From the IMG/VR virus record IMGVR_UViG_3300031521_000273, positions 1 to 30,235 of that record: a DNA stretch of 30,235 nt; one strand, written 5' to 3'. A model generated the notes under the pieces. The model searched no databases. It saw nothing but the letters and a program-made list of their open reading frames with translations, and was not told where the DNA came from. This document shows, piece after piece, positions 3,120 to 14,987 of this stretch. This DNA comes from a virus. The position numbers and the translations under genes were made by a program. How positions within the stretch are numbered: position 1 is the stretch's first letter; every line of letters starts with the position of its first letter.

Positions 3120-5612
3120 ATGGACTACAAAGAATTTATAGAGCGAAAAATAAAGTTTTCACCACTCAGCGGTTTTGAGGTTGAACGTGACGAAATCAAT
3201 CCAATGTGTTTTGAGTTTCAGAAAGATTCAATCATTTGGGGTTTAAAGGGCGGAAAAAGGGCTTTGTTTAGCTCGTTTGGGCTAGGTAAAACATTCTGTC
3301 AGTTGGAAATGGCACGTTTGACTATCAAGAAAAAAGGCGGTTTGGCTTTGATTATTTGCCCTTTGGGGGTTAAACAAGAATTCACAGAAGACGGTAAGAA
3401 GTTGGACATTCATATTACCTACGTGAAGTCAAACGAGGATATTCTAAATTCCCCCACTCCAATAATGATAACCAACTATGAACGTGTTCGTGACGGTGGA
3501 ATTGACGTGAACCAATTTACATTCGTAACACTCGATGAAGCTTCTGTTTTGCGCTCGTATGGCTCAAAAACTTATCAAGAGTTTCTTCCATTATTCGAAA
3601 GTGTTCCTTATCGGTTTGTCTGTACAGCCACTCCTTCTCCAAATAAATTCAAAGAGTTGATTCATTATGCCGGATTCTTAGGAATAATGGACACTGGACA
3701 GGCATTGACCAGGTTCTTTGCTCGCAACTCACAAAAAGCAAACGATCTTACTTTATATCCTCACAAAGAAGAGGAGTTCTGGTTTTGGATGTCTTCATGG
3801 GCTTTGTTCATTACTAATCCTTCTGACTTGGGATATTCGGATGACGGATACGATTTGCCCCCTTTGAATATAATTTATCACTGTGTAACGGTTGACCACT
3901 CACTGGCAATTGATGAATTGGACGGGCAAAAGAAAATGTTTCGTGATTCAGCAATGGGGTTAGCGGAGGCTTCGAGAGAAAAAAGACTCACTCTGAATGA
4001 TCGTATTGATAAAATGCAAGAAATTATTCAAGGTGATAATGCGGATAAACATTGGTTGATATGGCACGACCTTGAAGATGAACGACGTGCGATTAAAAAA
4101 ACAATACAAGAATGCGTCGAGGTTTACGGCTCACAGGATATTGAAACCAAAGAGAGTAATATCATTAAATTCTCAAATGGAGAAATCAAATATCTAGCCA
4201 CAAAGCCACGTATCAGTGGTTCTGGGTGTAACTTTCAAAGATATTGCGCTGACATGGTATTCTTGGGAGTTGGGTATAAATTCAATGACTTTATACAGGC
4301 AATTCACCGCTGCTACAGGTTCTTGCAGACCAAAGAAGTAAACGTTCACATTATCTATGCCGAGAGCGAAGAGAGTATTCTTAAGGTTCTACTTGGTAAA
4401 TGGGCGCAACACATTGAACTTGTAGAAAACATGACTAAAATAATTAAACAATTCGGACTCACTCAAAATGCAATGGAGTCACTAAAAAGAACAATAGGAA
4501 TGGAACGATACGAAGTAAACGGGCAATTCTACACAGCAGTAAATAATGACTGTGTGGAAGAAACCAAAAGCATGGAAGAAAACAGTGTAGATTTGATTCA
4601 CACGTCAATTCCTTTTGGTAATCAGTACGAATATTCACCCTCTTACAATGATTTCGGCCATAACGAAGATAATGACCAATTCTTTGAACAAATGGACTTC
4701 TTGGTACCTGAACTACTTCGGGTTTTAAAACCTGGTCGAGTAGCTGCCATTCATGTAAAAGATAGGATTTTATTTGGGAATGCAACCGGTTTGGGAATGC
4801 CGTCAGTAGATCCTTTCTCAGATATGACCGTTGCAAGTTTTCGAAAGCATGGGTTTATCTTTTTTGGTCGTATAACGGTCGTTACTGACGTAGTAAGGGA
4901 AAACAACCAGACTTACCGTTTGGGTTGGACAGAGAACTCGAAAGACGGCTCAAAAATGGGATGTGGAATGAATGAGTATATTTTACTTTTCAGAAAACTA
5001 CCAACTGATACCTCAAAGGCGTATGCTGACGAACCGGTAACAAAACCAAAGGACGAATACACAAGGGCACACTGGCAAGTTGATGCTTCAGGGTTTTGGA
5101 GAAGCTCCGGTGATAGATTCCTATCAAGCGATGAAATTAAATCACTCCCTATCGAAAAAGTACAACGATACTTTCAGGATTTCAGCAAAAACAGCCTTTA
5201 TGATTATCGCGAGCATATACGAGTAGGTCAAGTTATGGAGGATGCAAATAAACTTCCGGCAACCTATATGAGTATAGCTCCAGTTTCAAACGACCCGAAT
5301 GTTTGGACAGACGTGCTGAGAATGCGAACACTCAACTCTAATCAAACACAAAAGAAACTTCAAAATCACGTATGCCCTCTACAACTTGATATTGTAGAAA
5401 GAATTATAGGTCGATTCTCAAATGAGGGTGATTTGGTTCTTGACCCTTTCGGAGGATTAATGACAGTTCCATATATGGCTTTAAAAATGAAGCGTAAGGG
5501 AATGGGTATTGAGCTTAATTCTGATTATTTCCGTGACGGACTTTTCTACTTGCGAAAGATTGAATGTGAGTTGACGGCTCCTACATTATTTGAATTCGAA
5601 GAAATTGCATAA
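3120..5612 (+). CDS. Superfamily 2 helicase fused to beta-class DNA methyltransferase
   Basis: 830 residues. The N-terminal half is an SF2 (SNF2/DEAD-like) ATPase: Q-motif-like FEFQ (31-34), Walker A FGLGKT (53-58), motif II LDEAS (138-142), motif III TATP (169-172) and motif VI AIHRCYR (394-400). The C-terminal half is an amino-methyltransferase: motif IV HTSIPFGNQYEYSPSYND (494 onward) and, near the end, motif I DPFGGLMTVPYMAL (about 775). The order IV before I is the beta class, which makes N4-methylcytosine or N6-methyladenine using S-adenosylmethionine. Motif IV reads SIPF rather than SPPY/DPPY, and motif I has GLMT where GxGT is usual. The likely role is modification of phage DNA, with an ATPase that may load or translocate the methylase. 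A type III/ISP-like restriction origin is possible, but no nuclease domain is visible. Confidence 0.85.
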   Translation: MDYKEFIERKIKFSPLSGFEVERDEINPMCFEFQKDSIIWGLKGGKRALFSSFGLGKTFCQLEMARLTIKKKGGLALIICPLGVKQEFTEDGKKLDIHITYVKSNEDILNSPTPIMITNYERVRDGGIDVNQFTFVTLDEASVLRSYGSKTYQEFLPLFESVPYRFVCTATPSPNKFKELIHYAGFLGIMDTGQALTRFFARNSQKANDLTLYPHKEEEFWFWMSSWALFITNPSDLGYSDDGYDLPPLNIIYHCVTVDHSLAIDELDGQKKMFRDSAMGLAEASREKRLTLNDRIDKMQEIIQGDNADKHWLIWHDLEDERRAIKKTIQECVEVYGSQDIETKESNIIKFSNGEIKYLATKPRISGSGCNFQRYCADMVFLGVGYKFNDFIQAIHRCYRFLQTKEVNVHIIYAESEESILKVLLGKWAQHIELVENMTKIIKQFGLTQNAMESLKRTIGMERYEVNGQFYTAVNNDCVEETKSMEENSVDLIHTSIPFGNQYEYSPSYNDFGHNEDNDQFFEQMDFLVPELLRVLKPGRVAAIHVKDRILFGNATGLGMPSVDPFSDMTVASFRKHGFIFFGRITVVTDVVRENNQTYRLGWTENSKDGSKMGCGMNEYILLFRKLPTDTSKAYADEPVTKPKDEYTRAHWQVDASGFWRSSGDRFLSSDEIKSLPIEKVQRYFQDFSKNSLYDYREHIRVGQVMEDANKLPATYMSIAPVSNDPNVWTDVLRMRTLNSNQTQKKLQNHVCPLQLDIVERIIGRFSNEGDLVLDPFGGLMTVPYMALKMKRKGMGIELNSDYFRDGLFYLRKIECELTAPTLFEFEEIA

Positions 5613-5621
5613 GTAAAATGT

Positions 5622-5739
5622 GCCTGAAAGCGTTCGGGCGTATTGCAGCGAAAAACATTAATCCAACTAATAATTTAATCCGGTTCTTAAAGGAGAACCT
5701 TTGAGTTGGCGATGTAGAATATCATGTTTTTCGCTGCAA
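5622..5739 (+). ncRNA. Structured non-coding element with 16-bp perfect inverted repeat
   Basis: No gene lies between 5613 and 5758. A 7-bp hairpin comes first: gcctgaa (5622-5628) with ttcgggc (5633-5639) and loop agcg. A perfect 16-bp inverted repeat follows: 5643-5658 (ttgcagcgaaaaacat) pairs with 5724-5739. Inside it ccaact (5663-5668) pairs with agttgg (5704-5709), and inside that ggttct (5682-5687) pairs with agaacc (5694-5699). A competing hairpin aaagg-agaa-ccttt (5689-5702) excludes the inner one, so two conformations are possible. There is no T tract after the long stem, so it is not a simple terminator. It could be a cis-acting RNA or switch for the next gene, a small RNA, a cruciform replication origin, or a MITE with terminal inverted repeats. 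The structure is seen directly; strand and function are inferred. Confidence 0.6.
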
Positions 5740-5758
5740 CTTATTAAAATAAAATGAC

Positions 5759-6094
5759 ATGGAAATCTATATCTCACTCCCAATAACAGATAAATGCAGA
5801 GAAACTCAATATAAAAAAGCATTGTCACTTCAACGGTATTTCGAGTCACAAGGCCATAAAGTTATTAATCCTTTCGATATTGCTAAACAGGTCGAAAGCA
5901 GAATTATGTCAATGTGTAAAAGAGAGCCAACACACGAAGAATATATGTATGAAGACTTGCTTGAATTGGAGTGGTGTTCTCACATATTTCTTTGTGAGGG
6001 TTGGACGGAGTCAAAAGGCTGCATGATTGAGGTAGACAAGGTAATTAAACTTGGACTTGGATTTTTTACGGAACTAACTTATAAGTTTGGATAA
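5759..6094 (+). CDS. DUF4406 / nucleoside 2-deoxyribosyltransferase-like protein
   Basis: 111 residues. The pattern YISLPITD...R near the N-terminus, then INPFD, EEYMYEDLLELEWCSHIFLCEGW and SKGCMIEVDKVIKLGL is that of DUF4406, a Rossmann-like family related to nucleoside 2-deoxyribosyltransferases. Relatives exchange bases on deoxynucleosides, and phage versions may shape the nucleotide pool or process modified bases. The YMYEDL and GW.ES.G segments correspond to the pocket region of the family. Start ATG 5759 is favoured over the out-of-frame ATG at 5754. The structured element at 5622-5739 lies directly upstream and could control it. The substrate is unknown. Confidence 0.75.
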   Translation: MEIYISLPITDKCRETQYKKALSLQRYFESQGHKVINPFDIAKQVESRIMSMCKREPTHEEYMYEDLLELEWCSHIFLCEGWTESKGCMIEVDKVIKLGLGFFTELTYKFG

Positions 6095-6129
6095 ATTTAT
6101 AATTATCACTATTAACTAATATACTTGAT

Positions 6130-6954
6130 ATGGCTGGATGGTTGAAATTAAGCAGGGATATAAATAAACACTGGATTTGGAAAGACCCTGTAAAATTAAA
6201 ATGGTGGGTAGATATTCTGCTTACCGTAAACTTTTCAGATAACAAAATCAATATAGGAAATGAATTATATGATTGTAAAAGAGGTCAGTCGATAATGAGT
6301 TTAAAATCTTGGGGGGAACGTTGGAATGTATCGAAAGATACCGTTCGCAACTTTTTCAATCTACTCGAAAAGGACAGTATGATTACACACGAAAACCTCA
6401 CGAAAACTACACGCATAACAGTTTGTAATTATGAAACTTACCAAAGTGATTTACACGATAGCCAAACGCAAACCGAACGCTTAACAAACGATATCCGTAC
6501 GCAAGCCGACCCAATAAAAGAAAGAAAAGAAGATAGAGAAAAAAAAGAAAGAAAAAAAAATATAGTTGTTGAGCCATGGAGGTCAGATTTCAAAATCTAT
6601 TTATCCGATTTGAGAAACACATACAGGCTTCTGATAAACGATGATTCTTGGATAAAAGAAAGAGAGAGATTCAACCCGAACTTAGACATAAAATTGACAA
6701 TTGAAAAGTCGTGTACTGAGTTTTGGGCTACAGAGGCTGGTTGGACTCATAAGAAGAAATCAAAATCGAAAGATATTGACTGGAAGAAAACACTAACAAC
6801 GGCTATTTCACAACCACAAAATAAGGTGTATAAACAAAAAGGAACTAATCTATTTCAGTCAGAGGGTTCAAAGCGCAGAGAAGCTGCTGCAGAACTTGGC
6901 AAAATGGCTGAAAAGATAGTTCAGAATACAGTTGTAGACTTAACAAAAGTATAA
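6130..6954 (+). CDS. Winged-helix replication initiator / replisome organizer-like protein
   Basis: 274 residues. The first 100 residues (WLKLSRDINKHWIW, a GQSIMSLKSWGERWNVS stretch, then DTVRNFFNLLEKDSMI) are typical of the N-terminal winged helix of phage replication proteins such as lambda O-like or DnaD-like initiators. The segment with SWGERWNVSKDTVRNF is the recognition helix-turn-helix. A Lys/Glu/Arg-rich linker at about 130-150 is encoded by runs of 8 and 9 A. The C-terminal part is helical and Trp-containing and resembles the helicase- or DNA-recruiting part of such proteins. The next gene may be its loader partner. It probably binds the phage origin; no clear iteron array was found inside the gene by eye. 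Confidence 0.7.
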   Translation: MAGWLKLSRDINKHWIWKDPVKLKWWVDILLTVNFSDNKINIGNELYDCKRGQSIMSLKSWGERWNVSKDTVRNFFNLLEKDSMITHENLTKTTRITVCNYETYQSDLHDSQTQTERLTNDIRTQADPIKERKEDREKKERKKNIVVEPWRSDFKIYLSDLRNTYRLLINDDSWIKERERFNPNLDIKLTIEKSCTEFWATEAGWTHKKKSKSKDIDWKKTLTTAISQPQNKVYKQKGTNLFQSEGSKRREAAAELGKMAEKIVQNTVVDLTKV

Positions 6955-14786: not shown

Positions 14787-14881
14787 ATAAAACAGTAACA
14801 TATCAAATAGGCGTTGACTTACTAGGTCAACCGCTTATTTGTGTTCACTACATAAATCAGCCAATTGTAAGAGTTGATTAA
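14783..14881 (+). CDS. 32-residue hypothetical protein
   Basis: ATG 14783 in an ATGA overlap; the frame ends five bases before the following tRNA. The product is beta-like (VTYQIGVDLLGQPLICVHYI) with no charge bias. The overlap favours translation, but the small size leaves doubt. No family is recognised. Confidence 0.4.
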   Translation: MNKTVTYQIGVDLLGQPLICVHYINQPIVRVD

Positions 14882-14886
14882 AATAC

Positions 14887-14958
14887 CGCGGGTTGGAGCA
14901 GTGGTAGCTTGCTAGGTTAACTTCCTAGAGGTCGGGGTTTCGAATACCTCACCCGCAA
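14887..14958 (+). tRNA. Initiator-like tRNA with anticodon AAC
   Basis: A complete 72-nt cloverleaf: acceptor cgcgggt / acccgca, D arm gagc-agtggta-gctt, anticodon arm ctagg-ttaactt-cctag, variable aggtc, T arm ggggt-ttcgaat-acctc and discriminator A. The first acceptor pair is a C1-A72 mismatch and the D stem has A11-T24, both hallmarks of bacterial initiator tRNA. The anticodon stem has G-C at 30-40 and 31-39, but A-T at 29-41 where initiators have G-C. The anticodon is AAC (positions 34-36, T33 before it, unusual T37 after), not CAT, so it would read the valine codon GTT. No CCA is encoded. The fold is secure; decoding identity is uncertain. Confidence 0.8.
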
Positions 14959-14987
14959 CTAAATTATTAATTAAAAAAAAGTGCAAC

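Follow-up and report, generated by a model that had tools for sequence, protein, structure and literature searches.

The window, meaning the whole stretch of DNA analysed here, is a virus record of 30,235 bases (IMG/VR IMGVR_UViG_3300031521_000273), whose host probably belongs to the Bacteroidales, because the large terminase and C5-methylase it encodes most resemble those of Bacteroides, Porphyromonas and human-faecal phages (52-66% identity). An intergenic gap at 5613-5758 separates a gene for a fused SNF2 helicase and N6-N4 DNA methylase (hereafter the helicase/methylase gene) from a DUF4406 gene, in a neighbourhood where all genes lie on the + strand. The gap is almost filled by an element of six predicted helices, P1 to P6 (Table 1), whose closing stem, P1, overlaps the stop codon of the helicase/methylase gene, its constant upstream neighbour. 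A scan of positions 5300-6300 gave no convincing promoter or terminator around the element.

Three further features were noted elsewhere in the window, all on the + strand. A tRNA-like gene of 101 nt at 2748-2848 scored 44 bits with Rfam and was not called by ARAGORN; its acceptor and T arm are well formed, some 28 additional bases lie around the anticodon/variable region, and it is perhaps an interrupted or unusual phage tRNA. A tRNA-Val (AAC) was called by ARAGORN at 14887-14959, and was not reported at the Rfam gathering score. Just upstream of it, at 14795-14850, lies a strong hairpin (aaataggcgttgac...gtcaaccgcttattt; z about -4.8) with no long T tract.

Table 1. Genes at the locus and structural parts of the element, in window coordinates
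Feature	Position	Strand	Remarks
SNF2 helicase / N6-N4 DNA methylase fusion gene	3120-5612	+	Pfam PF00176, PF01555
DUF4406 gene (nucleoside 2-deoxyribosyltransferase-like)	5759-6094	+	PF14359, phrog_355; downstream neighbour in the window only
DnaD-like helicase loader gene	6130-6954		Downstream of the element in the window
Whole predicted structured RNA element, P1-P6, ~136 nt	5609-5744	+	Fold z -6.5; second copy at L014:3949-4082
P1, 5' arm AUAAG	5609-5613	+	Holds the helicase/methylase stop codon (5610-5612); pairs with 5740-5744, probability 0.69-0.83; unchanged in L014
P1, 3' arm CUUAU	5740-5744	+	Partner of 5609-5613
J1/2 UAAAA	5614-5618	+	Invariant in both copies; its final two bases take part in the base of P2
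P2 hairpin	5617-5644	+	12 pairs; tip GAA-AGCG-UUC invariant; in L014 2 doubly and 2 singly changed pairs, pairing kept
P3, 5' arm	5643-5658	+	First arm of the perfect 16-bp repeat; UUGCAGCGA invariant
P3, 3' arm	5724-5739	+	UCGCUGCA invariant; upper stem covaries, 3 doubly changed pairs kept
P4, 5' arm CCAACU	5663-5668	+	3 doubly changed pairs, all kept
P4, 3' arm AGUUGG	5704-5709	+	Partner of 5663-5668
Single-stranded AAUAAUUUAA between P4 and P5	5669-5678	+	Invariant, 10/10 identical in both copies, with changed helices on either side
P5 hairpin GGUUCUU-AAAG-GAGAACC	5682-5699	+	98% pairing; in L014 2 double changes kept and the top 3 pairs lost or shifted in register
AAAGGA at the P5 tip	5689-5694	+	Invariant; resembles a Shine-Dalgarno core
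P6 hairpin	5711-5723	+	In L014 2 doubly changed pairs kept, 2 lost

Anatomy, rarity and stability of the fold

The original prediction, made by reading this DNA alone, had described a leading hairpin, a perfect 16-bp inverted repeat with arms 65 bases apart, an inner 6-bp stem and a choice between two inner hairpins. The repeat was located as described (P3, arms 65 nt apart), as was the inner stem (P4). The leading hairpin is also there, with 12 pairs in place of the 7 first given (P2), and to these parts our analysis adds the closing stem P1 and the sixth hairpin P6, both missing from the earlier description. As for the two inner hairpins, ggttct/agaacc forms P5 (-7.2 kcal/mol, probability 0.98), and the supposed competitor aaagg/ccttt reaches -2.2 kcal/mol and a probability of 0.014. 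A riboswitch with two mutually exclusive conserved folds therefore found no support in the alternative tested, aaagg/ccttt, which forms in 1.4% of cases and is not conserved in the second copy described below.

P3 is the window's only perfect inverted repeat of at least 14 bp with a loop of at most 100. A first-order Markov model of the window leads one to expect 0.09 places with a repeat of 13 bp and, by extrapolation, about 0.001 with one of 16 bp. Folding of 5613-5758 on both strands, which had been proposed as a check, gave -45.5 kcal/mol for the + strand RNA (z -6.49, reached by none of 200 shuffles) and -40.8 kcal/mol for the - strand (z -6.06), and when the entire window was scanned on the + strand in 130-nt frames, the element ranked first of 753.

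Relatives of the adjoining gene and a second copy of the element

When the helicase/methylase protein was used to query IMG/VR, two close relatives were found, here called L013 (93% amino-acid identity) and L014 (88%). L013 is syntenic with the window across several genes; it lacks the element, and its methylase stop codon directly overlaps the start of a DUF4406 relative (51% amino-acid identity). The L014 contig otherwise shares little with the window (an open reading frame at its end, within L014:1-500, starts with a short tandem repeat of about 7 residues, VNSGLNS..., in what looks like a repetitive protein), and it carries a diverged second copy of the element directly after the stop codon of its helicase/methylase gene, at L014:3949-4082. 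The gene that follows this copy encodes 97 amino acids and is unrelated to DUF4406. In both phages, then, the element begins precisely where the helicase/methylase gene has its stop codon, and the genes that follow it differ. Because the next gene in L014 is unrelated, and L013 has a DUF4406 relative without the element, the element is, judging from these neighbourhoods, linked to the helicase/methylase gene and independent of DUF4406. The proposal of a switch for the DUF4406 gene, and with it a DUF4406-specific leader or riboswitch, was consequently dropped. Since L013 lives without it, the element is, on the same comparison, dispensable. Over the last ~90 bases of the helicase/methylase gene the window is 85% identical to L014 and 76% to L013, the reverse of the rest of the gene, and this short stretch hints that gene end and element were exchanged together or jointly inherited.

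Folded alone, the L014 copy takes the same layout as the window copy with a z of -4.4. Stability by itself is a weaker argument, because 54 of 2000 simulated random descendants of the window copy, at the same divergence, match the stability of L014. More telling are the compensatory changes between the copies. In a hand alignment of these two sequences, 24 of the 50 pairs are unchanged, 23 are changed and 3 are gapped; pairing was kept in 12 of the 13 doubly changed pairs (null mean 6.1, p ~0.0007, a value that carries some hand choice, the alignment having been re-registered after a first version with weak covariation) and in 16 of the 23 changed pairs overall (null mean 8.7, p ~0.001). In the earlier version, with P4-P6 out of register, the corresponding figures were 8/13 for double changes (p 0.18) and 14/25 for all changed pairs (p 0.027). 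With an alignment based on sequence only, the consensus-fold energy had a z of -7.1, reached by none of 1000 column shuffles, and the structure-conservation index was reached by 5 of 1000. The double changes are spread over P2, upper P3, P4, P5 and P6; P1 and lower P3 are invariant between the copies, except at the edge of P1, where one T-A pair has become a T-C mismatch. A covariance model built from the two sequences (R1) scores them at 162 bits (window) and 149 bits (L014), values that are high by construction; among the loci retrieved, no other sequence gave R1 a convincing score.

Unpaired positions are more conserved than paired ones (77% against 60% identity between window and L014), a pattern as in RNAs whose loops are bound. 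Each copy also contains 4-5 G-U pairs in the + sense, which become A-C mismatches on the opposite strand, and on this account a + strand RNA is favoured over a reading as DNA or as - strand RNA. A DNA element, be it a replication origin, a single-strand initiation site or a cruciform, would agree with the nearby DnaD-like helicase loader gene and with a - strand that folds nearly as well, but we consider it quite unlikely given the G-U pairs in both copies, the lack of direct repeats or a direct-repeat array nearby, the absence of a GC-skew turn, and the distance of 3.4 kb between element and DnaD-like gene in L014.

Taken together, compensatory changes in an independent copy, across a family of two sequences (window and L014), indicate that the element is very probably a real, conserved structured RNA. 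Both the expectation of covariation in a related phage and the argument that such a repeat would hardly arise by chance were thus borne out. That only two copies are known, and that L013 does without the element, might still suggest a functionless chance repeat; this is very improbable with about 0.001 such repeats expected in the window, and is largely refuted by the conservation of the fold in L014.

Search for further copies

The exact 16-base arm of P3 was found at 11 loci in IMG/VR, at none of them with the second arm. Patterns combining hairpin and stem, run against IMG/VR and once against a genome collection, returned beyond L014 only matches judged to be due to chance, by inspection and by model R1. 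Searches by blastn of phages with either copy, and of plasmids with the window copy, gave nothing meaningful. Among 80 helicase/methylase relatives, down to 57% identity, the element follows the gene in none but L014; one 68% relative has in its place a terminator-like hairpin after the gene (gcgggaatcaatgcccgctttttc, L077:3380-3560). Model R1 found no copy in 395 genomes of Bacteroidota or in 98 from a single order, in a search whose filters lose weak matches, and neither R1 nor the patterns revealed a further copy within the window or the L014 record. Since model and patterns derive from two sequences, more diverged members could have escaped. In addition, a tblastn search with the DUF4406 protein (E 1e-3) gave no relative in phages, and the complement of AAUAAUUUAA, sought as an antisense target, occurs nowhere else in the window.

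These results bear on the idea that the element is a small mobile element, MITE-like or a palindrome of the IS200/IS605 type, inserted after the gene. Its absence from the same junction in L013 and its presence in two otherwise different phages are what one would expect of an insertion. Nevertheless, we regard this as very improbable: there is one copy per contig in two contigs, the patterns and models applied to viral, phage, plasmid and genome collections gave no more, the insertion point is identical in both copies, and the gene end is also L014-like, a hint that gene end and element were inherited or recombined together. The multiple copies at unrelated sites that would define a MITE, as the original prediction had offered among its options, were not found in the data searched.

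Proposed function

The evidence for a function is thin, and the reading that we tentatively prefer, without giving it even odds, is that of a cis-acting intercistronic mRNA element bound by a factor through its conserved loops (AAUAAUUUAA and AAAGGA). On this reading the + strand element would belong to a polycistronic phage mRNA, in which it lies where the helicase/methylase gene ends, and it would act on that mRNA in cis. The helices would display the invariant single-stranded UAAAA, AAUAAUUUAA and AAAGGA to a factor of the host or the phage, and the compact fold may guard or mark the 3' end of the helicase/methylase message. Alternatively, the fold may bring the stop codon within ~20 nt of the next start, though ~146 bases separate them; in L013 stop and start overlap directly, which is the usual layout for translational coupling. 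The output would be a set level of the next gene product, whichever gene follows. A cis-acting mRNA element fits because of the placement at a stop codon in a co-directional operon and the invariant loops held by changing helices.

The main rival is a processed trans-acting phage small RNA, cut from the operon transcript or started within it, with P1 closing its ends and the loops acting on a host protein or RNA. The compact, self-contained fold with its closing stem and invariant loops would suit such a molecule, as would independence from the downstream gene, and a weak promoter-like site (TTGAAT-18-TAAAAT) lies at 5590-5619. However, six such sites were found where 3.9 are expected, which is background frequency, and promoters of this type are not known to be used by Bacteroidota. 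Moreover, a terminator after the element is lacking, and an RNA acting in trans needs no fixed position at one gene's stop codon, so that we hold this alternative to be possible but doubtful.

A more speculative reading, which we would call a long shot, is a new phage RNA class, carried along with the helicase/methylase gene, whose invariant loops capture ribosomes or some other factor of the host. Here the AAAGGA of the P5 tip could, for example, base-pair with the ribosome's anti-Shine-Dalgarno tail, and a TTG-started frame of 18 codons begins 6 nt after AAAGGA and ends just before the next gene in both phages (window 5701-5757, L014:4039-4095). This link is a lead only, because the peptides differ between the two phages and because Bacteroidia ribosomes normally hide their anti-Shine-Dalgarno sequence (PMC9976891).

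Phages of Bacteroidota have numerous non-coding stretches that lack an explanation, and few RNAs have been described from them. The element offers a compact and testable object: its helices and invariant loops are defined, and it accompanies the same gene in two phages that otherwise differ. It matches no Rfam family, and it could lead to a regulatory RNA of Bacteroidota phages.

Comparison with known structured RNAs

An intrinsic terminator had already been doubted in the original prediction for want of a T tract, and rightly so: CTTATTAAAATAAAATG follows the long stem, with no T tract, and the terminator scan picked out a single site, the inner P5 hairpin, with TTTGAGTTGG after it. No Rfam 15 family matches the element at its gathering cut-off. 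The best score was for RAGATH-17 (RF03095), at 27.0 bits against a gathering cut-off of 102.3 (E 0.17), and the L014 copy had no match; the likeness consists of a short hairpin and, after it, an A-rich stretch of similar kind, whereas P3-P6 are left uncovered by the match in the window. The element is probably a new motif of conserved structured RNA.

The putRNAs of phage HK022 have two stem-loops in ~70 nt, lie near early promoters, bind RNA polymerase and suppress termination, and are examples of phage RNAs that act without dedicated proteins (PMC9378689). By analogy, the element could act in cis against termination or pausing, binding RNA polymerase while the RNA itself emerges. Compared by description, it would likewise be phage-encoded and located in cis, with two adjoining stem-loop domains (P2, then P3) in a long operon of early type, but it is ~136 nt long, sits mid-operon rather than close to a promoter, and has an inner multi-helix junction and a closing stem. 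With these differences, no Rfam match, and a terminator search that covered 5300-6300, we deem this reading unlikely. Surveys of microbiomes have also yielded candidate structured RNAs, some of them near phage genes in Bacteroidetes (PMC8040213, PMC2864571), and the element, compared with these as a kind of object rather than motif by motif, resembles them in being a folded intergenic RNA with compensatory changes.
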